A stretch of DNA of 64,000 nucleotides from contig CAIXFN010000093.1 in the NCBI GenBank assembly GCA_903918755.1, positions 1 to 64,000 of the forward strand. The letters run 5' to 3'. Made by a program: the position numbers and the translations under genes. Under the pieces are notes generated by a model. It had not been told where the DNA came from and did not search any database. It was given only the letters and a program-made list of their open reading frames with translations. Position 1 is the stretch's first letter. Each line of letters begins with the position of its first letter. Source of the DNA: an uncultured Pedosphaera sp. (GTDB taxonomy: Bacteria; Verrucomicrobiota; Verrucomicrobiia; Limisphaerales; Pedosphaeraceae). Of this stretch, positions 3,342-51,126 are shown piece by piece.

Positions 3342-3348
3342 TTTGTTT

Positions 3349-4443: not shown

Positions 4444-4486
4444 CGCCAACGAAATGGGCGGTCCGGGCGGGAGTAATCCCTCTTCC

Positions 4487-5305: not shown

Positions 5306-5490
5306 AGGAGACCTATCCGGCAGAGGAAACTTTTCGGGCGATTGTTCATGATCGGGAGTTGCTTTTGGGTACCGCCCCGAAGATGGCGGGACGGGGGGCA
5401 CTGGGCAAGAAAACTCGTGATCAAAGCCGGGTGGAGAGTAATTGAAAACAATCCATCTGGCGAGGGGCGTGGCGGCGGAGCGGTCCGCTT

Positions 5491-6762: not shown

Positions 6763-6771
6763 GGTGGGGAT

Positions 6772-8567: not shown

Positions 8568-8591
8568 AGTTGTGGGGGCCCCGGCGGCCGG

Positions 8592-9527: not shown

Positions 9528-9574
9528 GAGTTTTTGGAAAAGCGGTAAATGCGATTCTTATCTGGGGCAGGGGA

Positions 9575-11520: not shown

Positions 11521-11524
11521 CGCG

Positions 11525-13285
11525 CTAAGGTTTCCAACGGTAAAGCAACACCTTGGCCTTGTAATCCTCCTCCACGAACACGAGGTATTCGCCGTCCTTG
11601 CGGCGGTGCGCCGTGATTCCGGTGAGGATGTCGATCCAACCGGTTTTATCAACGCCCCCGACGGTTTCCCCGGGGTCGAACGAACCGACTTCGGCGCCAT
11701 CCGCCATCCGGTTGACGCCGATGCGGCCGCGCTCCTTCCAGCCGCCCGTGAAAACGAAGTCCCCCACGGCCGCCACGCAGGCGGCCTCGGCACCGGCCGG
11801 GGGCGCAAAGGAAACGGTCTCGCGGTTGCCCGCCAGATAATTCTTGCAGATGAAAACGCGCCGGATGTGGCGCATGTCCGAGCCCTCGTCCGCCACGATC
11901 AGGGTGTCGGTGTCATCCAGATAGACAACGCGTGCGATCTTTTCCACGCCTTTGGGGGGCTCCATCACGGTGATTTTATCCGCGCTGTAGATGGGATTGC
12001 CGCGCGGGTCGAGGCCCTGAAAATCATAGCGGAAGAAGCCGTAAGCCATCCAGATGTTGCCCTTTTTATCCACCCAAAAGGGTCCCGGCTTCACCCGCGG
12101 GGTATTCGGGAAGAATTCCCCGGCTTGGTAATCCCCATCGCCATTGGTGTCCCGCCAGATCGACGCGCCCGCGGGTTTGTTGGGTGGCCAGGGCTGCTCG
12201 GTCCGATACAGATTGTTCCCCCACTGCAGAATCAGTCCGGAAGGAATGGCCACCTCGTCTTCGTAGCGGAAGATATTGATGAAATTGCTGGCGAACATGC
12301 CGCCCACAAACAGGAACCGTCGGCCGTTGAGATAAACCACCTGGGGCGAGGTGAGACCGTGTTCGCCATTCTGCTTCACGTGCGTGAGCCCGCGCGGATC
12401 ATGGGGATACTGGTGGCGCAGGAGCGAGTAACCCGTGAGTTTTGCTTCGCGACCTGGGGACTGGGAATAATCCATGGCGTAATGTTCCTGGATACCCCAG
12501 ACGTCATTGGCATCGGTGGAAGGATCGGCGCAGACCACATCCACGAAAACGTCGCCGCGCAGTTCCCATTGCAGTTTGCCCGCGGGGGAGAATTTGCGGA
12601 GACAGGTGCCCATTTCGCTCATGGCCACATAGATATTCCCCTCCGCGTCCATGCCGGTACCGCGAATCCCCCAGAACTTGGTGGGGGTGACCACGCCCGG
12701 CTTCCCGCTGGCAATGCCACCGTAATCCCCAAAGGCGCGGGTGAGTTTTGGCTGCTGGAGTTCGGTGACATCGTAGAACAAAATTTGTTGCCGGGGACCA
12801 GTTTGGGAATCGGCCACCATCAGTTGACCGTCATTGGCCAGCGCCAGGGCCATGGGTTCATACAAATCCGGGAATGTTACCGGGACGCCGTCACACGTGA
12901 TGCCTTTGGGCTTGAAATCGTATTCGTGGAATTTGGGTTCCACATATTCGATCGCAATTTTCCACTGGCGCCCGGAGCGGTCCGTGACTTCCAGGCTATT
13001 GGCCTTGACGTCCTGGTTGCCGATGACATCGCCATCCTTGTAAACCCCGAATTTCTTTCCGCCTTCATCCCAATGGCTCCAAGTGTTCACCGTGCCATCG
13101 GGCTGCACTTTGGTGTGAATGAAGAAGTTTTGCACCCAACGATTGCTGGCACCGGAAAAGGAATTACCGAGCCAGGAAACGGTGTAATTCAAGGGGGGCG
13201 CCGCGTGGCCAAGCGTCGCCAACGCGAGAGCCATTGCCAGGCTGGCGAATTTGCCGGCAGGGGACAAAATAACGTGTCTTTTCAT
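11525..13285 (-). CDS. Secreted NHL-type beta-propeller protein
   Basis: This 586-residue protein has a classical signal peptide (MKRHVILSPAGKFASLAMAL, cleavage near GHAAP). It contains propeller-like segments such as EPMALALANDGQLMVADSQ and RGTGMDAEGNIYVAMSEMG, which resemble NHL repeats. A DTNGDGDYQAGEF motif at about residue 380 is a dockerin-like or calcium-binding acidic loop. The function is unknown. The antisense strand is open for 783 codons across this gene, but the signal peptide and operon spacing favour the minus-strand reading. Confidence 0.65.
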   Translation of the reverse strand: MKRHVILSPAGKFASLAMALALATLGHAAPPLNYTVSWLGNSFSGASNRWVQNFFIHTKVQPDGTVNTWSHWDEGGKKFGVYKDGDVIGNQDVKANSLEVTDRSGRQWKIAIEYVEPKFHEYDFKPKGITCDGVPVTFPDLYEPMALALANDGQLMVADSQTGPRQQILFYDVTELQQPKLTRAFGDYGGIASGKPGVVTPTKFWGIRGTGMDAEGNIYVAMSEMGTCLRKFSPAGKLQWELRGDVFVDVVCADPSTDANDVWGIQEHYAMDYSQSPGREAKLTGYSLLRHQYPHDPRGLTHVKQNGEHGLTSPQVVYLNGRRFLFVGGMFASNFINIFRYEDEVAIPSGLILQWGNNLYRTEQPWPPNKPAGASIWRDTNGDGDYQAGEFFPNTPRVKPGPFWVDKKGNIWMAYGFFRYDFQGLDPRGNPIYSADKITVMEPPKGVEKIARVVYLDDTDTLIVADEGSDMRHIRRVFICKNYLAGNRETVSFAPPAGAEAACVAAVGDFVFTGGWKERGRIGVNRMADGAEVGSFDPGETVGGVDKTGWIDILTGITAHRRKDGEYLVFVEEDYKAKVLLYRWKP

Positions 13286-13314
13286 AATTTACGGCATTGG
13301 CAAGGTGCGCCGGC

Positions 13315-16281
13315 TCACTTTTCAAAACCGAATTCCAGTTCGTTGGCCCAATGGGTGGTCCAATCATTGTGGAACGTCAGGGGGTTGTCCTTGGAGACAC
13401 TACGGCCGGCGGCTAATTCGAAGGCGCGACCGCCGTTGTTGACGCGGAAGCTGAACTTCACCGTTTGCCCCGCCCGCCGCCGGGCGTTCACCTCGGGCAA
13501 CTCCGACCAGGGGATGGCACATTCCACCAGGTTGCCTTTCACCACCAGACGAGCCATGCCCTTGACCGGGCCGCCGTCAATCAGCGCCTTGGGTTCCCGC
13601 GGGAAAAAATGTTTGCGCACCATGCCGGGGCGTTGGAGGCAGAATATCTCCGTGCCGCCACCATAGGCTTCCGCGACCTTGTTCAAGGCGAACTCGTAGT
13701 CCGTATCGAAGTAGGCGCAAAAGTGCGGCATGGTTCCCGGAGGAAATTCCAGATGGTCCTTCTTGGACGGGGGCACGACATTGAAGGCGATCTGCACGTT
13801 GTGGTGGCCGTTGCCGGAGGGGACGTCAAAATCCTTGCGATAGGAGAAACGGCGCACGCCCTCCGGCCAGACGAGTTCCCGCTCCTTGTCCTTCACCTTG
13901 GCGGGGTAGAAAAAGTCGTCGTCATCGCGGGTCTCGTAGCGCAAAAGACCATCCATGGCGGGAACCCGCGCGGCAAAATAGAAGTAGTTGTCATCGTAAG
14001 CGAGCCAAGCCGTTACGGCGCCCCCGCCACCCTGATGCTCCCAATCGCGGAAAGGCAGATAGGCCTTTTCGGTTTCGCTGGCACCGACTTCGGCGGCCGA
14101 AGTTTGGGGCACCACCCCTTGCCAATCCGCCAGATCGCCATCTACCGTGATGGTGCGCCGGGCGATGGAATTCACGTGGACCAGTTCCGCGTGCCGCCGG
14201 GCGATGGTGGATTCCGCTTCGAATCTCGCCAGGAGCCGGTAATTGTTGTTCGTCGTGGCCGTCCCACCACTCACGCGAGCCTGGATTACGCGCGTTTCGT
14301 GGGGTGCCAGCCGCACCCGCTGATGGGGTGGTTCGAGTTTCAGTCCCTCGATGGAGGCGAAAAAGGTTCCTCGAACCGGTCGGTTCTGCAGGTTGGTAAT
14401 TTCGAATTTAATGCGGGGCTTCGACGGAATGGGCGCCGTGAAGTCATGCGCCTTGATTTCCACCAGATCCACCCCGGTGATGCGGGCGGAAGTCAATTCC
14501 TTGAGCAAAGCGGCAAAGGAACCAGGACGGCCATCGGAACGCAGGAAGTAACCCAATTGATTGAGGGGGACGGTGATGATTCCGTTCGTTGACGGGATCG
14601 GATTACCATAAAAATCCAATAACCGGAAACGGCCTGCGCCATCCGCCAATTCCAGGCGGGCACCCGGGGTGAGGCTGACCGAGCGGAACAGGGTCCGATT
14701 TTTGTCGTAACTGGCGCCGAGGTCACCCACGACAACAACTGTGCCGTCGTCGGGGTCTGGGGAGCCGGTGCGCTCGCCGCCCCTCACTTTTGGGAGTCCA
14801 TCAAACACGAAGATCCAGGGCAGTCCATTTTTGAAGAGAATTTCGCGGAAGCCCCGTTGGCCGATGAATTTTTGGGTGGCGGCCACCGCCGCTCCCGGCG
14901 ACCAGACCTGGGCCACCGCGAACTCTTGTCCATTGACGCGTGGTTTTTGGGAACTGAACACGTTCCCGGCATAGATACCCGCCGTGCGATCTTGCCCCAT
15001 CGCGCGCATGGAAGCGATGACCCCCGCCACGCGGTCGTCCGAGTTGGCCACCCAGCTTTCGGTGTCCCAAACCTTCACCCGGCCGAATTCGCCCTGCCGG
15101 TGCATCCATTTCGGCTCCAGGACCGGATCCGCCGCCAGGGGTTGATAGTGGATACTCACAAAATCCAGCCACGGCAGGAATTTGTCGGTTCCGTCGCTGA
15201 ACAATTTATCCCGCGTGTTCGCCGAGGAACAAGCGCCCCCCAACAGCACTTTCACCCCTGCTTCCTGCCGGGCCTCCCGGACCGCCTCCACTAGGACCTG
15301 GTACAATTCGCGGAAGCGCGGAATATCCGCACCCCAGCCAGAAATGGAGACGCCTTCCCAGGGTTCATTCCAGAGTTCCACGGCGTTGATCGGACCCTTC
15401 GGCCACCCGTGGCGGATGAGTACATCCTTCAGATAGGCTTTGAGCTTCGGGTCAAAAGACGGTAACCAGGCCAGATCTTCTTTGATGCCGGGAATCATGG
15501 TGCCGTCGGGCTTCAGCCAGGGCCGGCCCCGACCCAAGGGCTGTTCGCGTTCCGGGGTGGCGGCGGCGCCGACGGTTAGCATCAGGGTGACGTCATTGGC
15601 CATGGCCCAGTCCACATGGGCATCGGCAATGCTGCCATAGCCGCCCTCGGTGCGGGCACCTTTGACGCCGAGCCGCTTGAAAACGTTGAAGACCGCGGGC
15701 GACATCTCGTGCGGCCAGCCCAAATCCAGGGCATAAGTTGGCTGCCAAACCCGGCCGGGTTCCGGCGCTGGGACCCGGACACAAGAGCAACCGAATGCCC
15801 GTCCACGGTCCGCCAATTCGAGAATGACCGCATACCCGCCGAATTCATCGCCGATCCTTGGCTGCACGGTGATGATCCCACCCTCCGCCGGCAAGTCGGC
15901 CTGCAGGGTCGTCGAACTGGTCTCGGCAATTTTGAAGACCACCGGTTTCCACCAGTCGCCGGGTTTGCCTTTGGTGCCGTAACGGATGACGGTTGCGGTC
16001 ACGGTTCCCTTGTAGGGTGTTCCCGGTTTGACGAAAAAAGAGAAAGTGGCTTCCTCCCCTGGCCAGAGGGCATTCGCGCCGAGGCTGCAGGCGGTCTGCT
16101 GGACGGACCAGCCTTTGGCGGAAAGGCTGAAGGACTCCCGGAAGTTCTCCATCTCGCTGCCGGTCACCATTTGCGCGGAGGCGGGCTGCCCGAGGATCCC
16201 GCTCAGGACAACAAGTAATCCCAGCACCAGGCCGGACCAGGGATTGAGCGGTGAAAGCTGGAAAATAGCAGGCGTCGGCAT
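13315..16281 (-). CDS. Large secreted GH-A clan hydrolase with C-terminal CBM9-like domain
   Basis: The 988-residue protein has a signal peptide (to about residue 37). A beta-sandwich region to about 180 is followed by a TIM barrel with Glu306 (LWNEPWEG) as likely acid/base and Glu408 (VWDTESW) as likely nucleophile, the spacing seen in GH39- or GH5-like enzymes. From about residue 715 the sequence AWLAYDDNYFYFAARV marks a CBM9/DOMON-like sandwich. The gene starts one base before the stop region of the apiosidase-like gene, so the two are almost certainly co-transcribed and may act on the same glycan. Confidence 0.65.
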   Translation of the reverse strand: MPTPAIFQLSPLNPWSGLVLGLLVVLSGILGQPASAQMVTGSEMENFRESFSLSAKGWSVQQTACSLGANALWPGEEATFSFFVKPGTPYKGTVTATVIRYGTKGKPGDWWKPVVFKIAETSSTTLQADLPAEGGIITVQPRIGDEFGGYAVILELADRGRAFGCSCVRVPAPEPGRVWQPTYALDLGWPHEMSPAVFNVFKRLGVKGARTEGGYGSIADAHVDWAMANDVTLMLTVGAAATPEREQPLGRGRPWLKPDGTMIPGIKEDLAWLPSFDPKLKAYLKDVLIRHGWPKGPINAVELWNEPWEGVSISGWGADIPRFRELYQVLVEAVREARQEAGVKVLLGGACSSANTRDKLFSDGTDKFLPWLDFVSIHYQPLAADPVLEPKWMHRQGEFGRVKVWDTESWVANSDDRVAGVIASMRAMGQDRTAGIYAGNVFSSQKPRVNGQEFAVAQVWSPGAAVAATQKFIGQRGFREILFKNGLPWIFVFDGLPKVRGGERTGSPDPDDGTVVVVGDLGASYDKNRTLFRSVSLTPGARLELADGAGRFRLLDFYGNPIPSTNGIITVPLNQLGYFLRSDGRPGSFAALLKELTSARITGVDLVEIKAHDFTAPIPSKPRIKFEITNLQNRPVRGTFFASIEGLKLEPPHQRVRLAPHETRVIQARVSGGTATTNNNYRLLARFEAESTIARRHAELVHVNSIARRTITVDGDLADWQGVVPQTSAAEVGASETEKAYLPFRDWEHQGGGGAVTAWLAYDDNYFYFAARVPAMDGLLRYETRDDDDFFYPAKVKDKERELVWPEGVRRFSYRKDFDVPSGNGHHNVQIAFNVVPPSKKDHLEFPPGTMPHFCAYFDTDYEFALNKVAEAYGGGTEIFCLQRPGMVRKHFFPREPKALIDGGPVKGMARLVVKGNLVECAIPWSELPEVNARRRAGQTVKFSFRVNNGGRAFELAAGRSVSKDNPLTFHNDWTTHWANELEFGFEK

Positions 16282-41127: not shown

Positions 41128-41270
41128 AGGCCAACCGTCCGGAAACTGGACCCGACTTCGCTGGGAGCTTCCGCCGTCGCTGATGCAGCTATGGCGGACA
41201 GGACGCCGGACAGGCCAACCGTCCGGAAACTGGACCCGACTTCGCTCCGAGCAGCTACGCCGGGCAGGTC
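41128..41270 (+). repeat. Long-period imperfect repeats preceding the tandem array
   Basis: Two copies of CCAACCGTCCGGAAACTGGA continuing into CCCGACTTCGCT occur about 85 bases apart, separated by related but variable spacers ending in CCGGGCAGG or CCGGACAGG. They share their core with the 20-base tandem repeat just downstream, which probably arose from this unit. Confidence 0.65.
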
Positions 41271-41420
41271 TAACCGTCCGGAAACTGGACTAACCGTCTG
41301 GAAACTGGACTAACCGTCTGGAAACTGGACTAACCGTCTGGAAACTGGACCAACCGTCTGGAAACTGGACCAACCGTCTGGAAACTGGACCAACCGTCTG
41401 GAAACTGGACCAACCGTCTG
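41271..41420 (+). repeat. 20-base direct tandem repeat, seven and a half copies
   Basis: Seven head-to-tail copies of YAACCGTCYGGAAACTGGAC (20 bases) run from 41271 to 41410, followed by a half copy. The first base changes from T to C after the fourth copy, so the array consists of two homogenised blocks. There are no spacers, so it is not a CRISPR. The 20-base period puts successive copies on nearly the same face of the helix. Confidence 0.9.
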
Positions 41421-41489
41421 AAAAGGCGACTCGTGCAGTGGGGCCCCGGCTTTGATTGCCATTAGTCCTGTTTGCGTCGTCGTGGTATC

Positions 41490-41573: not shown

Positions 41574-42182
41574 TTGGAATCCGAATGTGCCGCCGAACTG
41601 AACGGATTGGGTGAAGGCATGTTTTGGGCGGCTTGAGGAGTTTACCCGCCGGAGGTACCGGAGGAGGGGCTCTTGAAATACCTGACTAATTCAGTCGGGC
41701 TTGTGGTTTTATTTAGCAACCTGGATTCGGTCGGTTTTGAAGCAAAGGCCGCGCGGATGGCGGGGTGCCGCGTGCGCTGCCCGTTGGTGACAGGGCAGGG
41801 GGCACGCGGCAGGGCCCACCATCCGGGTTCGATTCGCCGGGCGGTTGCGAGGCGCATGGCGAAATCAAAATCAATATGTCAAAGAGCGGGCCCGCCAGGA
41901 GCCAGGAACAGGCTGCCGGGCGAGCGAAAGCCGCTGGTGGCTGTTGCGGCGGCGTCCACTGCGAGCGCCGGGCGGACGGGCCCCGGTTTGTTTGTAGCAC
42001 GGCATTCGAGGATTCGTATTCCTATGGTAGGAATTTGGCAGGGAATTTTGAGGCTCCATGCTGGACCGGGATCTCGAAAATGGCACCTCGACAATCGCGA
42101 TTAAAGCTCTCGCCACGTTCACTGAGGCAAGTTTTGAGCCCATTGCCGCGATCAAAAACAACCCATGCTATGGTCTGAACCC

Positions 42183-43007
42183 TTAGTCCTTAGTCATCAC
42201 CCGTTGGATGCTCGTTTCGTTGGCGTGATGCCGCCGGCTTGCTCCGCCGCGTGGATCAACAGAAATCACGGGGCTTGGGAAAACCCATTGCCAGGCCCAC
42301 TCGTGTTCCGCGTTGGGATATTTCTGCGCCAGGGCGAAAGGCAGCATCACCGCTCCGAGTCCTGCCGCCAAATCCCGCTCGTGCAGCGCGTTCACCCGGA
42401 TCAACTGGGCCCGCAGGGGCTCGGCCAAGCGCTCCGGCAGCATGGTGACCCGGTCCTTGAATCCCTTCCCATCCCGTACCACGATTTGCCCCCGCTCGAA
42501 ATCAACGTCCTTGACGCGGAGGCGCAATCCTTCCATCAGGCGCAGTCCTGTTCCATAGAGCAACCGGCAAAACAACTGGTACGGGCCCGGCACCGCTGCC
42601 AGCACCCGCTGGACTTCGCTCTTGCTCAGCACCACCGGCATGCGGGGAGGGCGGCTGGCCCGCTCGAAGCCATCCAGCCAGGGCAACTGCACTTTGAGCA
42701 CCTCGCGGTAAAGAAACAACAGCGCGCACAGGGCTTGGTTCTGGGTCGAGGCGGCGACGTTCCGCTGTGCCGCCAAGTGGGTCAAAAAGGCTGTCACTTC
42801 GGCTTCCCCCATTTCCCGCGGATGCCGTTTGCCATGGAACAGGATAAACCGCTTGATCCAGTCCCAATAGGTCTCCTCGGTGCGGAAGGAAAAGCGTTTG
42901 AACCGCATCACCTCCCGGCACTGCTCTTGCAGCCGGAGTTTCGGGTTGGGGATAAACCCCTCGGAAGGACGCTTCAGCCTTTGCGGCTCATCGGATGATG
43001 GCAACAT
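42183..43007 (-). pseudogene. intI: Integron integrase (IntI), truncated at the C-terminus
   Basis: The 274-residue product shows an N-terminal SAM-like domain and the first half of a tyrosine-recombinase catalytic domain. Arg156 (GTGLRLMEGL) and Lys181 (RDGKGFKDR) are present. The integron-specific insert is clear at about 225-262 (PFALAQKYPNAEHEWAWQWV, then DPRGGASRRHH). The protein stops at SIQRVMTKD, before the HxxR, second His and Tyr that a full IntI of about 320-340 residues needs. No continuation was found in the next 500 bases in any frame. Strand transfer should be impossible, although DNA binding may persist. Confidence 0.9.
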
Positions 43008-43022
43008 GGCCGTGTTTTAACG

Positions 43023-43050
43023 TTGACGGGGCCGCCGATTCAAGTTTATT
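43023..43050 (+). promoter_or_regulatory. Candidate cassette promoter (Pc)
   Basis: TTGACG at 43023-43028 and TTTATT at 43045-43050 are separated by 16 bases and point into the cassette array from just upstream of the integrase start. This is where integrons usually carry Pc. The -35 matches five of six consensus bases and the -10 four of six. Confidence 0.4.
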
Positions 43051-43059
43051 CTCGATTGT

Positions 43060-43128
43060 GATGAAAAGAAATAGGCTGCAAATCAGCCGAGTTAGGCTGA
43101 ATCCGATTCAGTCCAATTCTAGTTAGGC
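43060..43128 (+). other. attI-like recombination region
   Basis: The region between the integrase start and the first cassette holds two GTTAGGC motifs, at 43091-43097 and 43122-43128. The second is the natural insertion point (G/TTAGGC) for the first cassette, whose gene starts 4 bases later. The first may belong to attI itself or be left over from an earlier event. The left limit of attI cannot be fixed from sequence alone. Confidence 0.6.
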
Positions 43129-43131
43129 ATC

Positions 43132-43509
43132 ATGAACACCTCGACACTCCAATCCGTATTTGATGCTTGGCTGGATGACGCATTGAGCCATCCGATTTCG
43201 CCGAGCGTTGTGGCATTTAGCTTCAATCTCGCAGAGCCGTGGTGTATCGAGATTGTCGGCTTGGATAGATACAGCGAGGACGACTCTGACTGGGCGTGCG
43301 AGGAGGTTTTCCGACCGGACGTGGAGTCGCTTGATCTTCCTGAGTCCGACGTAGGCGAAACTTGGGAGGTTGTGTTGGAGGCGGCCAAGCGTTTAGTTGC
43401 TGCATATCTCGACCGTCCCAGCGCTGGCAGCGCGATACTGCGACGAGCACAGGCAGTTGCAGTCGGATTTGTTGACGGTGATTTACACAACGTATGGCCG
43501 AGACCATGA
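43132..43509 (+). CDS. Cassette 1: unknown acidic protein
   Basis: The 125-residue protein is soluble and rich in acidic residues, with no signal peptide or recognised family. A YSEDDSDWACEEVF segment is notable. Its start lies 4 bases after the attI-side GTTAGGC box and its stop 2 bases before attC1, so there is almost no untranslated sequence. Translation may depend on the attI side for a ribosome site. I do not recognise a function. Confidence 0.7.
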   Translation: MNTSTLQSVFDAWLDDALSHPISPSVVAFSFNLAEPWCIEIVGLDRYSEDDSDWACEEVFRPDVESLDLPESDVGETWEVVLEAAKRLVAAYLDRPSAGSAILRRAQAVAVGFVDGDLHNVWPRP

Positions 43510-43510
43510 T

Positions 43511-43618
43511 GCCTAACACAGCGCTGGAGCCAACGCCGGTTACGCCTGGCAGCTTTCGCTGCGGATTTTTGGTTGGCGGGAGTCACCGGCGGCGTGGCTC
43601 AGCTTTTGGTCGTTAGGC
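43511..43618 (+). other. attC site 1 (108 bases)
   Basis: R'' GCCTAAC is at 43511-43517 and R' GTTAGGC at 43612-43618. The inner boxes pair, with GCGCTGGAGCCAACGCC on the left and GGCGTGGCTCAGC on the right. It belongs to the 108-base class with attC8, 9 and 11. Confidence 0.93.
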
Positions 43619-43631
43619 GGACTCCGCGCAC

Positions 43632-43949
43632 ATGACAAATCCATCACCATTTGTTGAGCGCAGTTTTGACTTATTGAAGTCGGGCGGCGAGCGAGTGCGA
43701 TTCACCGTCAGTTATGGGCCAGTTTATCAGCGCGGCGAGGATTTCTTTTGCCCGGTTCAGTTTGCTGGCTGGGCTAATCCGCCACCAGACATTCAGGGCG
43801 GCGACTCATTGGAGGCACTTTTGCACGCCGTCGGGCTTGTCCATGCGATTTTGCGAGATTTCATCAAGCATGGCGGCCATGTATTTTATGCAGGCACAGA
43901 CTGTGATTATCTATTTGAGAGGATTATTGTAGATGAGCCGTCCGCCTAA
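43632..43949 (+). CDS. Cassette 2: small unknown protein
   Basis: The 105-residue soluble protein begins MTNPSPFVERSFDLLKSGGE and contains GDSLEALLHAVGLVHAIL, a layout that recalls the DUF6968 group of small bacterial proteins; that link is tentative. Its stop codon is the TAA inside the R'' box of attC2, so the recombination site supplies the end of the gene. The role is unknown. Confidence 0.7.
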   Translation: MTNPSPFVERSFDLLKSGGERVRFTVSYGPVYQRGEDFFCPVQFAGWANPPPDIQGGDSLEALLHAVGLVHAILRDFIKHGGHVFYAGTDCDYLFERIIVDEPSA

Positions 43950-44042
43950 CAAGTCGCCGGGGCCAACCGCCGTTGGCGCTTGCCGTTCCGCTGTCGCGGT
44001 TCACTTCGCAGGTCGGCGGTGGCTCAGCTTTTTTCGTTAGGC
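43944..44042 (+). other. attC site 2 (99 bases)
   Basis: R'' GCCTAAC is at 43944-43950 and R' GTTAGGC at 44036-44042, with inner arms around GGGGCCAACCGCC and GGCGGTGGCTCAGC. The R'' box provides the stop codon of cassette 2. Confidence 0.92.
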
Positions 44043-44046
44043 CGCT

Positions 44047-44403
44047 ATGTCTGCACCGCTGCCATTCAAGGTTTCACCTGAAGCAGAGGAACGGCTCTTG
44101 CGGGCGGCCACGTTACCCGACATGCAACCTGGCATTTCCTACACGCTTGCTTACGACGTTCACAGTCGAGAAGGTGAACTGACCGAAGAATATCGAGGTG
44201 AGCATTACTCGATTGGCTACGATACACGCGAAGCTTGGCGCACAGGTCATATGGCTACGCAGGTCCAGATTGCGGGACATGAGTTCTGGATCACATCTTC
44301 CACACTCGATACACTCAGAGGCAGGACTTTGTCGGTGATTCGGCGCGATGTCGGACGAGGAAAACATGCAGGCACATTTCGAGATATTCTGGTCGCGGCC
44401 TAA
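44047..44403 (+). CDS. Cassette 3: small unknown protein
   Basis: The 118-residue soluble protein has segments such as LTEEYRGEHYSIGYDTREAW and VQIAGHEFWITSSTLDTLRG but no family I recognise. It starts 4 bases after the preceding R' box and ends in the TAA of the attC3 R'' box. It has no signal peptide or membrane segment. Confidence 0.7.
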   Translation: MSAPLPFKVSPEAEERLLRAATLPDMQPGISYTLAYDVHSREGELTEEYRGEHYSIGYDTREAWRTGHMATQVQIAGHEFWITSSTLDTLRGRTLSVIRRDVGRGKHAGTFRDILVAA

Positions 44404-44496
44404 CAAATCGCTGCAGCCAACGCCGGTGGGCGTTGTCAGTTCCGCTGACGCGGGCCACGTCCTTGATCCGGCGTGGCTGAGCTTTTGTCGTTAGGC
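44398..44496 (+). other. attC site 3 (99 bases)
   Basis: R'' GCCTAAC is at 44398-44404 and R' GTTAGGC at 44490-44496. The inner arms are GCTGCAGCCAACGCC and GGCGTGGCTGAGC. The stop codon of cassette 3 lies in R''. Confidence 0.92.
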
Positions 44497-44506
44497 GTAG
44501 AGCGCT

Positions 44507-44917
44507 ATGAGCATTCCGGACATCCTGTTGCAGTGCGTGCTTCCTCTCCTGCTTTATTCAGGTGCAGTTGTGCCACTGAGCGTGGCGCTGCTATTCCGCG
44601 CGAGTTCAGACGAGCGCCATCGGAGACACCGGCGACTCCTCATCATTCTGTTTTGGGTGCAGGCGGCGTCGTTTTTGCCAGTCATCGTGGCGCTTCTACT
44701 TCGTATCCCTCACGCGATTCACGGCCTTATCTGGCCAGCTTTGATCGGGGCCGTTCTCTTTCTGTGGGGTTTGTTCCATTTGGTGAGCGAGTGCGTCCAG
44801 TTCCTGAGGCCCAAGGATATCGCGCCGTTTGCCGAACCAAACGGTCCCGCGAACGGGAGCCAGCCGATTCGCTCAGAGACAAATCGAACGTCATCGGCGG
44901 CTGGCTCCCGTCGCTGA
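44507..44917 (+). CDS. Cassette 4: membrane protein of unknown function, reading into attC
   Basis: The 136-residue protein has three predicted transmembrane segments (about 6-30, 42-67 and 72-97) and a polar tail. The R'' box of its attC is GCCGAAC instead of GCCTAAC, so the usual TAA is lost. The last 28 or so residues (AEPNGPANGSQPIRSETNRT onward) are therefore encoded by the attC itself. That tail is probably a by-product of the mutation. Confidence 0.7.
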   Translation: MSIPDILLQCVLPLLLYSGAVVPLSVALLFRASSDERHRRHRRLLIILFWVQAASFLPVIVALLLRIPHAIHGLIWPALIGAVLFLWGLFHLVSECVQFLRPKDIAPFAEPNGPANGSQPIRSETNRTSSAAGSRR

Positions 44918-44931
44918 CCTTTGCGTTAGGC
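44831..44931 (+). other. attC site 4 (101 bases, altered R'')
   Basis: R' GTTAGGC is at 44925-44931. The matching R'' reads GCCGAAC at 44831-44837, one base off. The inner arms GGGAGCCAGCCG and CGGCTGGCTCCC pair perfectly with an unpaired A to one side, as expected for the extrahelical bases that orient attC cleavage. Confidence 0.85.
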
Positions 44932-44946
44932 GGCACTACGCGCACC

Positions 44947-45282
44947 ATGCTAACAACCCCAAATGATTCACGAGACGTTCCGAGGCGCTCTCTGAGATGC
45001 TACACGCATCCGATCCTGTGGCTTTTCGTTCTCAACGTCGTTGCCGTCGCGATCATGTCACCTCGTTTGACCGTGGCAGACATTATCTTCGGGCTGCTGC
45101 TGCCATTGGGATTCTTGTGGATGCTTTCAGGCGCGTTGCGAGTTGGGACTATGAGCACTAATCACGGCATCCTCAGCCGTTCCGAGCGGCCGATTTCATT
45201 TCGTGTCGCTGTCACGCTCATTGCGCTGGCTTATGCCGCTACGAGTGCCGCACCTTTTTACACATGGACCACCAGCAAATGA
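44947..45282 (+). CDS. Cassette 5: small membrane protein
   Basis: The 111-residue protein has three hydrophobic segments (about 21-37, 43-65 and 86-105) and an N-terminal basic region. The ATG at 44947 is 15 bases after the R' box; an open frame back to 44473 crosses attC4 and is not used. The family is unknown. Two membrane-protein cassettes side by side (4 and 5) are unrelated in sequence. Confidence 0.7.
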   Translation: MLTTPNDSRDVPRRSLRCYTHPILWLFVLNVVAVAIMSPRLTVADIIFGLLLPLGFLWMLSGALRVGTMSTNHGILSRSERPISFRVAVTLIALAYAATSAAPFYTWTTSK

Positions 45283-45292
45283 AACCCGTGCC

Positions 45293-45385
45293 GCCTAACC
45301 ATACGCTGCAGCGAACCCGGCCATCGCGTCACTGTTCCGATCGTAGCGTCTCGTGGGCCGGGTCGCTGAGCTTTTGTCGTTAGGC
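45293..45385 (+). other. attC site 5 (93 bases)
   Basis: R'' GCCTAAC is at 45293-45299 and R' GTTAGGC at 45379-45385. The inner parts are CGCTGCAGCGAACCCGG and CCGGGTCGCTGAGC. It belongs to the 93-base class with attC6, 7 and 10. Confidence 0.92.
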
Positions 45386-45396
45386 GGCTCACTCCC

Positions 45397-45723
45397 ATGA
45401 GGGGCTTTATTCTTCTTCTATTTGTGGCTGTGGTTCTTCTTGTTGTTGGTTGTCGCACCCACAGCAAGCGGACTGTGGATCAGTTTGCGTTCTTGCAGAT
45501 TGGTATGCCCATGACAGTCGTGAGCAATCGGGTGGGGATGCCTGATCTACCTTACCGAGGCCAGATACGATGGCGCTATAGCTTGGCAGACGGCTCTGAG
45601 CTGGTCATAATTGCGGAAGCCGAAAAAGAACCCTACACGTTTGAAACGTGGCGAGTCGTCTGCTTTGGTCAGGAACGCGGCGACAAGTGGCTGTGGGCAA
45701 AGCCACCCGAGGCGCTAAAATGA
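45397..45723 (+). CDS. Cassette 6: small lipoprotein
   Basis: The 108-residue protein has a lipoprotein signal: hydrophobic core FILLLFVAVVLLVVG, then Cys19. The mature part contains QIGMPMTVVSNRVGMPD, a pattern like SmpA/BamE-type small lipoproteins (MxxxxVxxxxGxP). It ends WAKPPEALK before attC6. An envelope location is likely; the role is unknown. Confidence 0.75.
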   Translation: MRGFILLLFVAVVLLVVGCRTHSKRTVDQFAFLQIGMPMTVVSNRVGMPDLPYRGQIRWRYSLADGSELVIIAEAEKEPYTFETWRVVCFGQERGDKWLWAKPPEALK

Positions 45724-45730
45724 TGAAGCC

Positions 45731-45823
45731 GCCTAACCATGCGCTGCAGCGAACAGCCGGATCGCGTCCGGGTTGGCAATCGGAGCGGTTTGCCCGGCTG
45801 TCGCTGAGCTTGGGTCGTTCGAC
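45731..45823 (+). other. attC site 6 (93 bases, junction R' is GTTCGAC)
   Basis: R'' GCCTAAC is at 45731-45737. The right box at the junction reads GTTCGAC (45817-45823) because its last six bases belong to cassette 7, whose own R'' is GTCGAAC. The inner arms GCGCTGCAGCGAACAGCCGG and CCGGCTGTCGCTGAGC pair well. Confidence 0.88.
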
Positions 45824-45833
45824 GACAATCTGA

Positions 45834-46166
45834 ATGAGCACCGCTTCCCGAGAACTATGGTTTGGAGTTCGGGCGGTTTATCTTTTCGGGAAGAAGAAGG
45901 ATGGCACGAACATTTTCGAGGAACGCATTGTTGTCTTTTCGGGCAGCACAGCAGACGAGGCGCTTGGCAAAGCAGAGCAGGAGGCCGATGCTTACGCGAG
46001 GCAGCATCAGATGCTGAGGCACTCAACTCTGGAAGCCTACGAGCAAGACGGTGACCCGCTAATTGATGGCTACGAGGTATGGTCCGAGCTTTTTGAGTCT
46101 CCGGAGGATTTGCAGTCATTCGTCGCCTCTAAGTACGAGCGCTATGATTACCATCGAGACAAGTGA
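45834..46166 (+). CDS. Cassette 7: DUF4288 family protein
   Basis: The 110-residue protein shows the DUF4288 layout: LWFGVRAVYLFGKKKDGTN near the start, EERIVVFSGSTADEALGKAE in the middle and a conserved aromatic-acidic tail (GYEVWSELFESPEDLQSF). The function of this family is unknown. It lies between attC6 and attC7 with a 10-base leader. It is the only cassette whose flanking boxes use the CGA variant. Confidence 0.75.
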   Translation: MSTASRELWFGVRAVYLFGKKKDGTNIFEERIVVFSGSTADEALGKAEQEADAYARQHQMLRHSTLEAYEQDGDPLIDGYEVWSELFESPEDLQSFVASKYERYDYHRDK

Positions 46167-46167
46167 A

Positions 46168-46260
46168 GTCGAACAAACCGGCTGCACCGAACGCCGGGAT
46201 CGCGTCTCAGTTAACAATCGGAGATCATTGGTCCGGCGTCGGTGATCCGGAGCGTTAGGC
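46168..46260 (+). other. attC site 7 (93 bases, R'' is GTCGAAC)
   Basis: R'' reads GTCGAAC at 46168-46174, the exact reverse complement of the GTTCGAC at the left edge of the same cassette. R' GTTAGGC is at 46254-46260 and belongs to the next cassette. The inner arms contain CTGCACCGAACGCCGG and CCGGCGTCGGTG. Confidence 0.9.
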
Positions 46261-46275
46261 AGACTCGCGTGATTT

Positions 46276-46659
46276 ATGATTCCGAGCTTCACAGGCAAGG
46301 CAGAGGTTGAGTTTCCCAGATTCGCCCGTGATTGGTTTCGTCAGCTTTCTCGCGGCGAGTTTCGTGAGGCAGTTTTGCAGCTCGACGAGCCGAACAGTTA
46401 CGGCATTCGATGGAGCGAGCAGCAGGTTCGCGATGCGTTGCGTGATTATGCTCGTTCGGATTCAGTTCGCGTCACCGACCCGGATTTGATTAGCTCGGAC
46501 GCGCATTCGAGTTTGGTTTCGTTCAAGGATGGTCGAGGTTATTCCTTTGACCATGATTTTCCGCTGGACGGTCGTTGGAGTGATTTGACAGCGCAGTTCG
46601 AGTTTTCACGCCGTCCAGAAGGTTATGCCGTCGTGTTGCACGACATTCATGTTTTATGA
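46276..46659 (+). CDS. Cassette 8: unknown soluble protein
   Basis: The 127-residue protein contains RDWFRQLSRGEFREAVLQLD and FKDGRGYSFDHDFPLDGRWSD, without a signal peptide or membrane segment. The N-terminal pattern of a helix with RDWFxxLxxGxFxxA recalls small NTF2-like folds. This is a weak impression, and no function is assigned. Confidence 0.68.
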   Translation: MIPSFTGKAEVEFPRFARDWFRQLSRGEFREAVLQLDEPNSYGIRWSEQQVRDALRDYARSDSVRVTDPDLISSDAHSSLVSFKDGRGYSFDHDFPLDGRWSDLTAQFEFSRRPEGYAVVLHDIHVL

Positions 46660-46666
46660 GCCGTCT

Positions 46667-46774
46667 GCCTAACACAGCGCTGCAGCCAACGCCGATTACA
46701 CCGGTCTGTTTACGCTGCGGGTTTCGGGTTGGCGGGAGTCACCGGCGGCGTGGCTCAGCTTTTGGTCGTTAGGC
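46667..46774 (+). other. attC site 8 (108 bases)
   Basis: R'' GCCTAAC is at 46667-46673 and R' GTTAGGC at 46768-46774. It is nearly identical to attC1, attC9 and attC11, including ACACAGCGCTG on the left and GGCGTGGCTCAGCTTTTGGTC on the right. Confidence 0.93.
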
Positions 46775-46785
46775 CACTTCGCACC

Positions 46786-47223
46786 ATGAAAACACTCATC
46801 GTTTTATTACTGTCGTGCGCGTCTCTTTTTGCCGGAGAGACGCTCATCCCACTCGCGTCCGGCCAGACGAATATGGTTTCCTACGGGCTTTCTTGCGTCG
46901 TCAGCGATTGGAGCGACGCCACAAATGCACCAGCCGGTAGCAGTTTGGTTCTGACCCTCCGCAATACTGGCGCGAAGTGGCTTGATATGGAGAGCGTCAC
47001 TACAGATGATTTTAGCCTTCGAGACGCGAACGGACAGAACATGAAGGTTTATCTTTGGACACCAGCACCGCGAGGCATGGGTTTTGGTGATGATACCATC
47101 ATCCATCTTGCAGTTGATCACGCTGGAGGCGCACCACAGCCTTGGACGTTGCATTTTCGCTCCAAGAAGGCGCTCATTCCTGTCGAATTGACGATTCTCA
47201 ACATTAAGCCGCGCAAGCATTAG
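46786..47223 (+). CDS. Cassette 9: secreted or periplasmic protein of unknown function
   Basis: The 145-residue protein has a signal peptide (MKTLIVLLLSCASLFAGETL). A beta-rich mature part includes SSLVLTLRNTGAKWLDMESV, an Ig-like or copper-chaperone-like sandwich pattern. The ATG at 46786 follows the R' box by 11 bases; an open extension to 46729 would lie within attC8. The role is unknown. Confidence 0.72.
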   Translation: MKTLIVLLLSCASLFAGETLIPLASGQTNMVSYGLSCVVSDWSDATNAPAGSSLVLTLRNTGAKWLDMESVTTDDFSLRDANGQNMKVYLWTPAPRGMGFGDDTIIHLAVDHAGGAPQPWTLHFRSKKALIPVELTILNIKPRKH

Positions 47224-47237
47224 ATTATGAGCCAGTG

Positions 47238-47345
47238 GCCTAACACAGCGCTGGAGCCAACGCCGGTTACGCCGGTCAGTTTGCGCTGCGGGTTTTTGGT
47301 TGGCGCAAGTCACCGGCGGGGTGGCTCAGCTCTTGGCCGTTAGGC
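47238..47345 (+). other. attC site 9 (108 bases)
   Basis: R'' GCCTAAC is at 47238-47244 and R' GTTAGGC at 47339-47345. It shares most positions with attC1 and attC8 and differs at a few central bases. Confidence 0.93.
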
Positions 47346-47348
47346 GTC

Positions 47349-47756
47349 ATGAAGCGCATCGTCAGAGTCACGGTTTGGGGAGCAGTCAGTTTGGCAGCTC
47401 TCTACACTTTGCTCGCCGTCACGGTTGGCGTGAGCTTTTATCGTCCAGTCCCGCTCGACAACGACCCGCTCACCAATTCCATTGCCATCACGTCTGTGTC
47501 CAGCAATCGGCTTACTTTGGCTGACGGCAGAGTGCTCGTGATGTTGGGCCATGAGCGAGAGCGTTTGAGTCAGGACATGCGCGACTCCGGAAGTCGGATC
47601 GAGTTGGACTCTGATGGCTCACGCTTCGCCAGCGTTTACGTGAAGAGGAAGAGATTCATTTGTGGGACGGGCGCGCCGGCTGTTTTCATTCCGCTGCTGC
47701 GCAGCGAGTATTCAGCGTATTACCGTCATCCACTTGGCCTGGGGGAGTTCCAATGA
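47349..47756 (+). CDS. Cassette 10: membrane-anchored unknown protein
   Basis: The 135-residue protein has one N-terminal transmembrane segment (about 8-29) and a polar remainder with LTLADGRVLVMLGHERERL. The start codon lies only 3 bases after the R' box, leaving no room for a ribosome-binding site inside the cassette. Any such site must come from the preceding attC. The family is unknown. Confidence 0.7.
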   Translation: MKRIVRVTVWGAVSLAALYTLLAVTVGVSFYRPVPLDNDPLTNSIAITSVSSNRLTLADGRVLVMLGHERERLSQDMRDSGSRIELDSDGSRFASVYVKRKRFICGTGAPAVFIPLLRSEYSAYYRHPLGLGEFQ

Positions 47757-47757
47757 C

Positions 47758-47850
47758 GCCTAACCATGCGCTGCAGCGAACGGCGGCGGGCCGTCGCGGT
47801 TGCAATCGGCGCGCCTCGTGGCCGCCGTCGCTGAGCTTCTTTCGTTAGGC
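47758..47850 (+). other. attC site 10 (93 bases)
   Basis: R'' GCCTAAC is at 47758-47764 and R' GTTAGGC at 47844-47850. The arms GCGCTGCAGCGAACGGCGGC and GCCGCCGTCGCTGAGC pair strongly. Confidence 0.93.
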
Positions 47851-47872
47851 CACATTCGCAGCACAGCATTTT

Positions 47873-48397
47873 ATGGCACGATTATCATACGAAGATTCAT
47901 GTCGGTCGCTCCAGAGTCAGCAGATTATTGACCCCGGCGATATTCCACCATTGCCGCAGCGTCCGCCACGTCACGATGATGAGGTGCTCGGCGTCAGCTT
48001 TTTTCGCACGATGCTTGCCGATTCCACACTTGAGCATTTGACTTTGCCACGCACACTCTTTGGCCGCTCCGAGATTCGCGCCACTTCATTTCAGGACACC
48101 GACCTTTCCGAGTCCACCGCGAATTGGAACGATTTCATTGATGTGGATTTTAGCACCGCCGACCTTTCGCGCTCCGATTTTCGTGCGTGCATTTTGCAGA
48201 GCGTTCGGTTTCGTGGAGCCAAGCTTGCAGACGTAGATTTCCGCCATTGCGGTTTCACCGCTTGCGACTTTTCTGGCGCAGACCTCACCGACGCCAAGAT
48301 CACCCGAAAGGCAGGCGCATCGCTTCAGCTTTCATCCGAGCAGCAGCGAGTTATTGATTGGCAGGCAGACGATGGCGAGGAGCCGGAAGGCGGTTAG
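47873..48397 (+). CDS. Cassette 11: pentapeptide-repeat protein
   Basis: The 174-residue protein contains a run of A(D/N)Lxx-like pentapeptides from about residue 60 to 145, for example DTDLSESTANWNDF, STADLSRSDFRACI, GAKLADVDFRHCGF and GADLTDAKI. These fold as a right-handed quadrilateral beta-helix. Some such proteins protect DNA gyrase from quinolones (Qnr), but this one is short and lacks a clear Qnr loop pattern, so no resistance role is claimed. Confidence 0.82.
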   Translation: MARLSYEDSCRSLQSQQIIDPGDIPPLPQRPPRHDDEVLGVSFFRTMLADSTLEHLTLPRTLFGRSEIRATSFQDTDLSESTANWNDFIDVDFSTADLSRSDFRACILQSVRFRGAKLADVDFRHCGFTACDFSGADLTDAKITRKAGASLQLSSEQQRVIDWQADDGEEPEGG

Positions 48398-48412
48398 AGC
48401 TATGACCATGTG

Positions 48413-48520
48413 GCCTAACACAGCGCTGCAGCCAACGCCGATTACGCCGGTCAGTTTTCGATGCGGGTTTCGGGTTGGCGGGAGTCACCGGCGGCGCGGC
48501 TCAGCTTGGGGTCGCTAGGC
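48413..48520 (+). other. attC site 11 (108 bases, junction R' is GCTAGGC)
   Basis: R'' GCCTAAC is at 48413-48419. The right box reads GCTAGGC (48514-48520), a T-to-C change in the otherwise invariant GTT core. This would be expected to reduce recombination at this junction. The arms match attC1, 8 and 9. Confidence 0.88.
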
Positions 48521-48526
48521 CACATC

Positions 48527-48865
48527 GTGAGCGCATATTCCATAAACATCGTTGCTCGTGGCGAAGAGATTGTTTATGCCGAAGATGGCAAGCGATACTG
48601 TTTTGAGAACGGTCTTCGGCGATTAACCGGGGTCATCCAGTCGCTCGACACTCGTTCTGTTGACCTGGTGGTTTTGGATGCCGACTGCCTCACCGAGGAT
48701 ACAGCCACACAGCTTTTCGGTGGTCCAAATTTCACCATGGGTGGCTGGGGCGAGACGATTTGGATTCGCGACGGGCGGGTGGTCGCGCGGGTGCTTGCTC
48801 ACACCGCGCCGGAGTCGCTGATGGAGCGGTACACCAGGGGACTACTAGATGACAACGCTGCCTAA
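48527..48865 (+). CDS. Cassette 12: unknown protein, last in the array
   Basis: The 112-residue protein probably starts at the GTG at 48527, 6 bases after the altered R' box; an open frame to 48461 lies in attC11. It contains VYAEDGKRYCFENGLRRLTG and a soluble alpha/beta-like pattern, with no recognised family. It ends in the TAA of a partial R'' box (GCCTAAT at 48860-48866). Confidence 0.68.
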   Translation: MSAYSINIVARGEEIVYAEDGKRYCFENGLRRLTGVIQSLDTRSVDLVVLDADCLTEDTATQLFGGPNFTMGGWGETIWIRDGRVVARVLAHTAPESLMERYTRGLLDDNAA

Positions 48866-48866
48866 T
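48860..48866 (+). other. Remnant of attC site 12
   Basis: GCCTAAT marks where the R'' box of a twelfth attC would begin, but no inner arms or R' box follow. Unrelated sequence and a dispersed repeat start within 40 bases. The array was probably cut here by deletion or rearrangement. Confidence 0.6.
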
Positions 48867-48945: not shown

Positions 48946-49038
48946 ACTTCGTTGGAATGGTTTGACAGTCACCTGAATCGTCGTGACCATCCGTAACCAG
49001 TTTTGAACACCAAACCCTGGATAACCGCCCTAAAATCC

Positions 49039-51126
49039 ATGAACCACCCAAACGGAAGACTCCCTGCGGTCAGCCTCAAACTGATCCTCCTCTTGCTCGT
49101 GTCGGCCTGCCCGTCCCACGGGGCCGGGAACACCGGAAAAGCGGATGTTTCCGCGTCCAAAGTCATCACTGCCGAGCATCTCGCGGCCATCACGAAGCTC
49201 AGCAGTCCCCAGTTGTCGCCCGATGGCAAAAGCATCGCCGTGCTGATCACGCGGGCGCACACCGAGTCGAACACCTGGGATACGGTGCTGGAACTGGTGG
49301 AGGTCGCCACCGGGAAACCGCGCAATCTGACGCCGGGACGCACCGGGGTCGCGCACCCACGTTGGTCTCCCTCCGGCGACCGGTTGGCGTTCTTGAGTGT
49401 TCCGGGCGGCGCCGGGAAGGAGGCCGTCCCGCAGATCTTCTGCCTGCCGATGAACGGGGGCGAAGCCCTGCAGGTCACCAAATCGCCGACGGGAGTGCAG
49501 CATTTCAGTTGGAGTCCCGACGGCAATGAAATCGCCTTTGCCGCCGAGGACGAGCGACCGAACAAGCAGGAAATCGAGAAAGGGAACGACGCTTTTGAAA
49601 TCACCAACGACGACATCTTTACCACCGCCGAACCTTTGCCCGTGCATATCTGGTGGGTGCCGGCGGGGGGCGGCGCCGCGCGTCGTTTGACCTCCGGGAC
49701 CTGGACGTTGCCCGTCTCCCTGCCTCCGAGCCCTCCGGCATCACCCCTCTCCTGGTCGCCCGATGGCCGGGAAATCGCCTTCACCCGTCAGGAAACGGCG
49801 CACACCGGCGATCAGGACAAAGCCAGCATTCAAATCCTCAATGTCGCATCCGGTGCCCTCAGGGCGGTCACGGGACAGGTCCTGTTCGAAGGGTTCCCGG
49901 TTTTCTCACCGGATGGCAAAAGCATTGCCTACTGGCAATACCGGGATCGGGATCCGGGGAATGTGAATGACATATTACTGGCCCCGGCCACGGGTGGGCC
50001 GGGCAGAAACCTGACCTTGTCCGTGGATCGTTGCCTTTATCAGAACCGCTGGCTGCCGGATGGCAAGAGCCTGCTGGTGGGCGCGAATGACGGCGACAAG
50101 GTCTGCCTCTGGGAAGTCCCACTGGAAGGCCAGCCCCGGAAACTGGATCTCGGTGACCTCAGTCCGGCCTGGTCATTCTGGATCGATGTCAGCGTCGGTA
50201 AAAAGGGTGAAATTGTCTTTCCGGGAAGTTCCGCGGAACAGCCGGCTGAACTTTACTATTGCGAGTCGGCCACCGCGAAGCCGCGGCGTTTGACGGACTA
50301 TAATGCCAGGATTGCCGCCCTGGATCTGGGCAAGGTCGAAACCGTGACCTGGGACGGTCCGGATGGGTTCAAGGAGAACGGACTGCTTTTTTATCCGCCG
50401 GGCTATCGCGCCGGCACCCGGCTGCCGCTGGTCTTGAATATTCACGGTGGTCCCCAGGCGGCCTCGGTGCGTTCTTTTTCCGCGTTCAACCAATTGATGG
50501 CGACCCATGGTTACCTGGTGTTTTGTCCGAACTACCGGGGCAGTGACAACCTGGGAAATGCCTACCAGCACGCGATCTTCAATGATGCGGGAGATGGGCC
50601 CGGACGGGATGTGATGTCGGGAATTGAGGCGTTGAAGGCCAGGGGAATTGTCGATGAATCCCGCATCGCCGTCACTGGCTGGTCCTACGGTGGCTACATG
50701 ACCTCCTGGCTGATCGGCCACCACGACTTCTGGAAAGCCGCAGTGGCCGGAGCTGCCGTCACGGACTTGACCGATGAGTATTGTTTCTCGGACGGCAATG
50801 TGACCTGGAAGTATGCCATGCAGAAAAACGCCGCACCCTGGTCTGCGGAAGGCCAGAAACTGTATCGTGAGCAATCCCCGATCAGCTACGCGGCCCACAT
50901 GAAGACTCCGACCCTCATCATCACCGATACCGGGGATGCGCGGGTGCCACCAAGCCAATCGTGGAAACTTTACCACGCGCTCAAGGACCAGGGCGCGACC
51001 GTGTCCATGGTGGGATACCCGGTCCCGGGCCATTTTCCCGGCGACCCGGTCCGGTCAAAGGATTGCTACCAACGTTGGCTGTCCTGGCTGGATCGCTACC
51101 TGGGTGCAGAACCGGCCAAACCATGA
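49039..51126 (+). CDS. S9-family prolyl oligopeptidase / acylaminoacyl-peptidase, exported
   Basis: The 695-residue protein has a signal peptide (about 9-30). An N-terminal beta-propeller has PD40-type blades (KLSSPQLSPDGKSIAVLIT, WSPDGNEIAF, FSPDGKSIAY). The C-terminal peptidase domain carries Ser549 (GWSYGGY), Asp633 (DTGDARVPP) and His665 (PGHFPGDP). It should cleave short peptides in the periplasm or outside the cell. The ATG at 49039 is preferred over a TTG at 49003 because it places the basic residues directly before the hydrophobic core. It is unrelated to the integron. Confidence 0.9.
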   Translation: MNHPNGRLPAVSLKLILLLLVSACPSHGAGNTGKADVSASKVITAEHLAAITKLSSPQLSPDGKSIAVLITRAHTESNTWDTVLELVEVATGKPRNLTPGRTGVAHPRWSPSGDRLAFLSVPGGAGKEAVPQIFCLPMNGGEALQVTKSPTGVQHFSWSPDGNEIAFAAEDERPNKQEIEKGNDAFEITNDDIFTTAEPLPVHIWWVPAGGGAARRLTSGTWTLPVSLPPSPPASPLSWSPDGREIAFTRQETAHTGDQDKASIQILNVASGALRAVTGQVLFEGFPVFSPDGKSIAYWQYRDRDPGNVNDILLAPATGGPGRNLTLSVDRCLYQNRWLPDGKSLLVGANDGDKVCLWEVPLEGQPRKLDLGDLSPAWSFWIDVSVGKKGEIVFPGSSAEQPAELYYCESATAKPRRLTDYNARIAALDLGKVETVTWDGPDGFKENGLLFYPPGYRAGTRLPLVLNIHGGPQAASVRSFSAFNQLMATHGYLVFCPNYRGSDNLGNAYQHAIFNDAGDGPGRDVMSGIEALKARGIVDESRIAVTGWSYGGYMTSWLIGHHDFWKAAVAGAAVTDLTDEYCFSDGNVTWKYAMQKNAAPWSAEGQKLYREQSPISYAAHMKTPTLIITDTGDARVPPSQSWKLYHALKDQGATVSMVGYPVPGHFPGDPVRSKDCYQRWLSWLDRYLGAEPAKP

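Follow-up and report, generated by a model that had tools for sequence, protein, structure and literature searches.

Can an array of gene cassettes stay in motion when the integrase beside it has lost its end? The question is raised by positions 42183-48866 of a 64,000-nucleotide stretch of DNA from an uncultured Pedosphaera sp. of the Limisphaerales (Verrucomicrobiota; assembly GCA_903918755.1, contig CAIXFN010000093.1, positions 1 to 64,000), which was analysed whole and is called the window here. The first-pass annotation had read this locus as a chromosomal integron with twelve cassettes, and that is confirmed: it comprises an IntI-family integrase gene, an attI-like stretch, eleven attC sites and twelve single-gene cassettes (Table 1), and is a further example of a known integron type; the literature already describes integrons from this phylum as well as duplicated ones and integrase pseudogenes. 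The array and the IntI identity stand; completeness does not, since the integrase is C-terminally truncated. As a whole, the locus is very probably a sedentary chromosomal integron of its Verrucomicrobiota order, equipped with a truncated integrase, probably not self-sufficient as assembled, and holding a turning-over gene pool.

Identity of the array and loss of the integrase C-terminus

The claim of an IntI-type integrase was borne out by a profile search, in which the protein scored 333.4 bits against TIGR02249 (E 1.4e-99; family cut-off 265 bits), residues 28-272 aligning to positions 3-247 of the 315 in the model, whereas Xer models gave it 49-85 bits. A tree of 86 integrases placed the window sequence with its own order and other Verrucomicrobiota (10 rows, branch support 100/100) and set 76 Pseudomonadota rows apart; the rows left out of this tree were L135, which is the window itself, L047, which shares a contig with L131, and L002, L003 and L140. 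The attI-like stretch lies, as described, before cassette 1 with its GTTAGGC core sites, and 265 bases there (42875-43139) are 98.5% identical to a second integron head of the same genome, on contig C79. Eleven attC sites had also been named, and the expected imperfect inverted repeats, GTTRRRY core and covarying structure were found. All eleven match an attC covariance model (62.0-96.6 bits), scores that are not independent, the model having been trained on these sites and five from C79. Among the same 16 sites, whose own consensus supplied the structure, 39 cells had both partners changed, where shuffles averaged 14.7, and 93.7% of paired cells were standard pairs, compared with 80.2% after shuffling and 20-41% with the partner slid. 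The repeats also fold as attC sites should, the single-stranded bottom strands of ten of the eleven lying below the shuffle mean (z-scores of -1.6 to -5.9), with attC11 as the exception. Twelve short open reading frames (ORFs), located in the ORF listing between and after the sites and all on the plus strand, form, as had been proposed, an array in which each cassette holds one gene and all point the same way. No Rfam family reached its gathering threshold in the window.

How the integrase gene has decayed is a more curious matter than the array itself. The window integrase has 274 residues, against 325-360 in 32 full-length relatives, and its residue 272 corresponds to position 276 of 343 in one of them (L046), so that about 67 C-terminal residues are absent. 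The frame ends in a stop after SIQRVM-TKD, and no continuation of the protein could be read by eye in the three frames downstream. In the full-length relatives, and in another copy of the same genome on contig C95, the absent segment bears the motifs HTLRH, LGHKD and IYTHV, which we take to be those of the second arginine, the histidine and the nucleophilic tyrosine of tyrosine recombinases. The catalytic set is thus incomplete in the window copy, while these three motifs are seen in that of C95. Without its C-terminal catalytic segment the window integrase is probably inactive on its own, and because it is this protein that adjoins the cassettes, the array is probably not self-sufficient.

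Other integrase copies, cassette movement and rival readings

The genome (7.19 Mb in 118 contigs, the window array lying on C93) holds further pieces of nearly the same integrase gene. One end of C95 carries it from residue 207 onward (95% identity over the matched part), a 3' half with HTLRH, LGHKD and QIYTHV that appears intact. The start of C79 encodes residues 1-44 (100% identity) and runs through an attI region into eight attC matches with different cassettes, which makes it the second integron head. The start of C46 retains residues 33-98 (88%) and 244-272 (93%), a deleted third copy. Matching pieces of the copies are 95-99% identical in DNA, and the loss in the window therefore looks recent. 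A near-identical intact integrase, of which C95 would hold the 3' half, could act on the window array in trans; we infer both its intactness and this action.

Recombination by IntI is well established: cassettes enter as circles when the enzyme joins the folded bottom strand of an attC site to attI or to another attC, cutting after the G of GTTRRRY. The cassettes of the window would have entered in this way; what the locus itself contributes is the site anatomy, the covariation and a signature at the cassette ends. If cassettes move as circles, the left end of an attC site should fit the 5' bases of its own cassette, which are the right end of the site before it. Among 50 neighbouring attC pairs of the genome, 37 were informative, and the preceding end fitted better in 22 of them, with seven ties (sign test without ties, P 0.016); pairs more than 2600 base pairs (bp) apart were not counted, and a partial match (L146 5197-5285), a truncated one (L007 4347-4481) and two lone sites (L150 and C93:96683) were excluded. 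All three informative pairs of the window fit the preceding end, most clearly attC6 and attC7. The cassette ends thus carry what looks like a signature of past movement.

Together with the near-identical second head and its different cassettes, this signature indirectly backs cassette turnover. Two heads with almost the same integrase and attI and no cassette in common suggest that content changes faster than heads diverge, or else that gene conversion keeps the heads alike. No syntenic locus for comparing arrays was found in the relatives tried: the 3' flank gene (49003-51126), used in an empty-site test, drew no match at E <= 1e-100 from any of 12 relatives, the 5' flank gene was matched at E <= 1e-60 in five of eight, and in the two of these compared (G005 and G009) none of the neighbouring window ORFs of at least 150 codons was matched.

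Several observations weigh against the reading of a turning-over integron helped by an integrase elsewhere. The bottom strand of attC11 folds no better than chance (124 of 200 shuffles fold equally well), and eight of the 37 informative end pairs favour the present right end. Three cassettes (1, 5 and 8) had no relative in a search of 293 genomes of the order. Because the C95 copy is visible only from residue 207, an intact gene is no more than implied; and since integrase 3' sides number three (C93, C95 and C46) against two attI sides (C93 and C79), the pairing of integrase ends with arrays is uncertain, the more so as window positions 42389-42875 separate the end of C95 from that of C79.

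It seems unlikely to us that the array is dead and frozen, decaying with no integrase of the genome still acting on it. Such a state would agree with the truncated integrase, the lost last attC, the poor fold and GCTAGGC core of attC11 and the degraded cores of other attC clusters in the genome; it fits badly with the better-than-shuffled folds kept by all other window sites, with the apparently intact 3' half on C95 and with the close DNA identity of the copy pieces. Also unlikely, in our judgement, is the reading that the array truly belongs to a full-length integrase and that its truncated end is false, created by chimeric assembly through the roughly 487 bp (42389-42875) that the copies share. 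C95 ends at window position 42389, C79 begins at 42875, and, as compared by eye, C79 and C46 open with 39 bases that are exact reverse complements of each other; yet C93 crosses the stretch unbroken, and a few base differences between the copies on either side of it may have allowed the assembler to phase them. The idea that there is no integron here, only dispersed palindromic repeats beside a XerC-like recombinase, could appeal to attC-like sites spread across 15 contigs and has practically no chance of being right, refuted as it is by the gap between IntI and Xer scores and by the regular one-gene spacing, single strand and core sites at the junctions.

Outside the two heads, attC sites are scattered widely in this genome. 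We count about 69: 11 in the window, one at C93:96683 and eight on C79 (E <= 0.1), and 49 in thirteen other stretches (E <= 0.01; 50 rows, one being the reverse strand of a site already counted). These stretches bear one or more sites each, and no integrase match falls within them. A whole-genome pass, in which 150 of 5977 candidates were scored, gave at least 60 sites at E <= 0.1, and the true number may for that reason be higher. Outside the window, C93 bears at 95420-96833 one attC and an IntI-like fragment that matches weakly (E 2.3e-4, 34% identity) and contains one stop. At window 41680-42050 lies a repeat of some 370 bp that is dispersed through the genome, with 45 matches if the repeat itself and short partial ones are counted; on C93, C95, C82, C2 and C48 copies lie at most about 2.5 kb from integrase or attC sequences (P 0.004 by a rough post hoc Poisson estimate). 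Ahead of the integrase, window 41270-41430 consists of tandem 20-base units, CCAACCGTCTGGAAACTGGA, and related units adjoin the C95 copy.

Occurrence in the order and likeness to known systems

The attC model provides a usable search tool for this group, in which both attC and IntI prove common. It matched 27 of the 30 genomes of an order sample (E <= 1e-3) and 18 of the 145 of a phylum sample (E <= 1e-6 and stricter filters), each including the source genome, two frequencies that are not strictly comparable. Integrases above the family cut-off occur in seven of 30 relatives, again counting the source genome, and in none of 14 control genomes. With the IntI N-terminus as query, 153 of the 293 genomes of the order were matched (source included, E <= 1e-5), many of them in several copies, and the weak matches may include other tyrosine recombinases.

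The group had been called little studied, and this agrees with the literature found: Verrucomicrobiota appear as an entry in the list of integron-bearing phyla (PMC8618304), and our search for work linking integrons with the stem Limisphaer- returned none. The present genome thus documents a multi-integron case in a phylum that the reviews consulted only list. More than one IntI is found in 22% of IntI-bearing genomes (PMC9024848), and an earlier survey gave 20% of bacteria with more than one intI, nearly one third of intI genes being pseudogenes and some arising from duplication within a genome (PMC2426708).

With its IntI gene, attI-like region and one-strand attC array of single-gene cassettes, the locus resembles the sedentary chromosomal integrons of Vibrio, Xanthomonas and others, and its probably inactive integrase recalls Xanthomonas, in which inactivation of the enzyme is common (PMC12444791). 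It differs from them in its phylum and in having near-identical heads and many satellite attC clusters within one genome. The pairing of a broken integrase with a nearly identical and probably functional copy recalls the pseudo-integrons of the earlier survey (PMC2426708); here, however, twelve cassettes stand at the truncated copy and a different set at the other head. The thirteen outlying stretches are like CALIN, clusters of attC sites that have no integrase (PMC9024848, PMC8618304), whereas the window array keeps an attI-like region and most of the integrase gene.

Cassette content, promoter candidate and intI breaks in relatives

The cassettes are predicted to encode mostly unrelated small proteins (Table 1). 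Of the product labels first given, pentapeptide repeat holds above the family cut-off, while DUF4288 is reached only below it. Eight products (all but 2, 7, 8 and 11) had no Pfam family at or near its cut-off, and PADLOC gave no match among the ten scanned (cassettes 10 and 12 left out). The DUF6968 label of cassette 2 is backed by two relatives that exceed the cut-off (31.5 and 32.4 bits). Folds predicted for cassettes 2 and 7 (pLDDT 79.5 and 87.3) had no counterpart in the PDB at E <= 0.001, the best Z being middling (4.7 and 5.8), and for that reason we claim no function for either.

When the twelve cassettes were compared with arrays of the same genome, 20 stretches of relatives and the flanks of 80 public IntI loci (15 array-overlapping loci excluded), no relative was found in these integron loci at E <= 1e-3, cassette 4 matching attC sequence alone. 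Elsewhere in the order (the same 293 genomes, E <= 1e-5, joined query, at most two candidates scored per genome), cassettes 2, 3, 6, 7, 9, 11 and 12 have clear relatives, with best identities of 44-71% and one short match of 84%; those of cassettes 4 and 10 are weak. The relatives sit in other genera, and 30 of the 293 genomes were matched, the source included. Among 20 of the 29 loci from other genomes, an attC lies beside the cassette relative clearly in L270 and L266 and weakly in L262 and L271, and none was found at E <= 0.01 in the remaining 16.

Table 1. Features of the integron locus (window coordinates; aa, amino acids)
Feature	Position	Strand	Support or remark
IntI integron integrase, C-terminally truncated, 274 aa	42183..43007	-	TIGR02249 profile; frames read by eye
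attI-like region, GTTAGGC at 43091 and 43122	43008..43128	+	core sites; likeness to C79 head
Weak Pc-like promoter TTGACG-18-TATTCT, pointing to cassettes	43023..43052	+	consensus scan
Cassette 1 ORF, 125 aa	43132..43509	+	no Pfam, NCBIfam or PADLOC match
attC1	43511..43618	+	86.1 bits
Cassette 2 ORF, 105 aa, DUF6968-like	43632..43949	+	23.5 bits, below cut-off 27
attC2	43944..44042	+	76.6 bits
Cassette 3 ORF, 118 aa	44047..44403	+	no family at or near cut-off; relative beside attC in L270
attC3	44398..44496	+	87.8 bits
Cassette 4 ORF, 136 aa, membrane-like by eye; 3' end runs into attC4	44507..44917	+	
attC4	44831..44931	+	62.0 bits
Cassette 5 ORF, 111 aa, membrane-like by eye	44947..45282	+	
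attC5	45293..45385	+	96.6 bits
Cassette 6 ORF, 108 aa, lipoprotein-like signal VVGC by eye	45397..45723	+	relative beside attC in L266
attC6, right end GTTCGAC	45731..45823	+	82.1 bits
Cassette 7 ORF, 110 aa, DUF4288-like	45834..46166	+	24.4 bits, below cut-off 27
attC7, left end GTCGAAC, reverse complement of attC6 right end	46168..46260	+	65.0 bits
Cassette 8 ORF, 127 aa, DUF7668	46276..46659	+	35.6 bits, cut-off 27
attC8	46667..46774	+	84.7 bits
Cassette 9 ORF, 145 aa, secreted-like by eye	46786..47223	+	relatives 53% and 57% identical
attC9	47238..47345	+	80.3 bits
Cassette 10 ORF, 135 aa, N-terminal membrane segment by eye	47349..47756	+	
attC10	47758..47850	+	95.6 bits
Cassette 11 ORF, 174 aa, pentapeptide repeat	47873..48397	+	PF13599 59.3 bits, cut-off 38
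attC11, right end GCTAGGC, poor fold	48413..48520	+	76.1 bits; z +0.32
Cassette 12 ORF, 112 aa, GTG start, no attC after it	48527..48865	+	
GCCTAAT, possible stub of lost twelfth attC	48860..48866	+	read in sequence

Transcription of the proximal cassettes probably starts at a promoter within or next to attI, for which a consensus scan gave one weak candidate against 0.3 expected. A candidate LexA box at attI was dropped, its spacing being CTG-N9-CAG instead of N10.

Breaks in intI recur among the relatives. At L230 (positions 1100-1400; contig C9 of G331) a nearly full-length IntI gene is split between QNQAF and NALVF by an insert of about 260 bp, which encodes a GIY-YIG-like single-domain nuclease (named by eye) and has 13-bp inverted repeats, ACCCCGTGAGATA and TATCTCACGGGGT. 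As a query this nuclease matched four of 15 genomes at E <= 1e-6, in seven places including L230, and a search for literature on GIY-YIG proteins with inverted repeats under the stem Verrucomicrobi- found none. IntI fragments of several families (L003, L189, L191, L193, L166, L167, L187, L231, L234 and others) likewise end near the codons of TQNQAxNAL, with differing right ends, and at this break L234 has a 7-bp unit four times over. Eleven of 30 fragment loci, one being the L230 insertion, end at L046 positions 91-102 (the 30 become 28 if three copies in genome G012 are counted once; 20 were chosen by eye from about 150 matches listed and 10 came from earlier work). Deletions whose two ends both lie in intI number 12, and six of them begin at positions 91-108 (scan P 0.01-0.03); other breaks fall at 75-84 and 107-191. 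Such figures are suggestive of a break hot spot near the NQA-x-NAL codons, where alignment ends may also cluster at a conserved motif that is no true hot spot. Integration of the attG type was considered as the cause of the breaks and rejected, no consistent GTTRRRY being visible by eye at the break.

It is conceivable, though we would give the idea little credence, that heads, consisting of attI and the whole or a part of intI, multiply within genomes of this order and collect separate arrays served in trans by one intact integrase, and that intI is cut repeatedly near NQA-x-NAL, perhaps by a GIY-YIG nuclease element recognising the site, as exemplified in G331. As a side observation, G012 has three copies of a truncated intI head (L166, L167 and L187). 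Their identity is 92-95% over some 870-1000 bp, a stretch that takes in a tandem repeat downstream; two have attC nearby and the third runs off its contig. In L162 (positions 1447-13408; contig C15 of G007), self-BLAST revealed, inside one attC array, an intI N-terminus with attI-like segment that recurs about six times, whole or in pieces, and both copies whose ends were read are followed by a GTTAGGC or GTTAGGT core.

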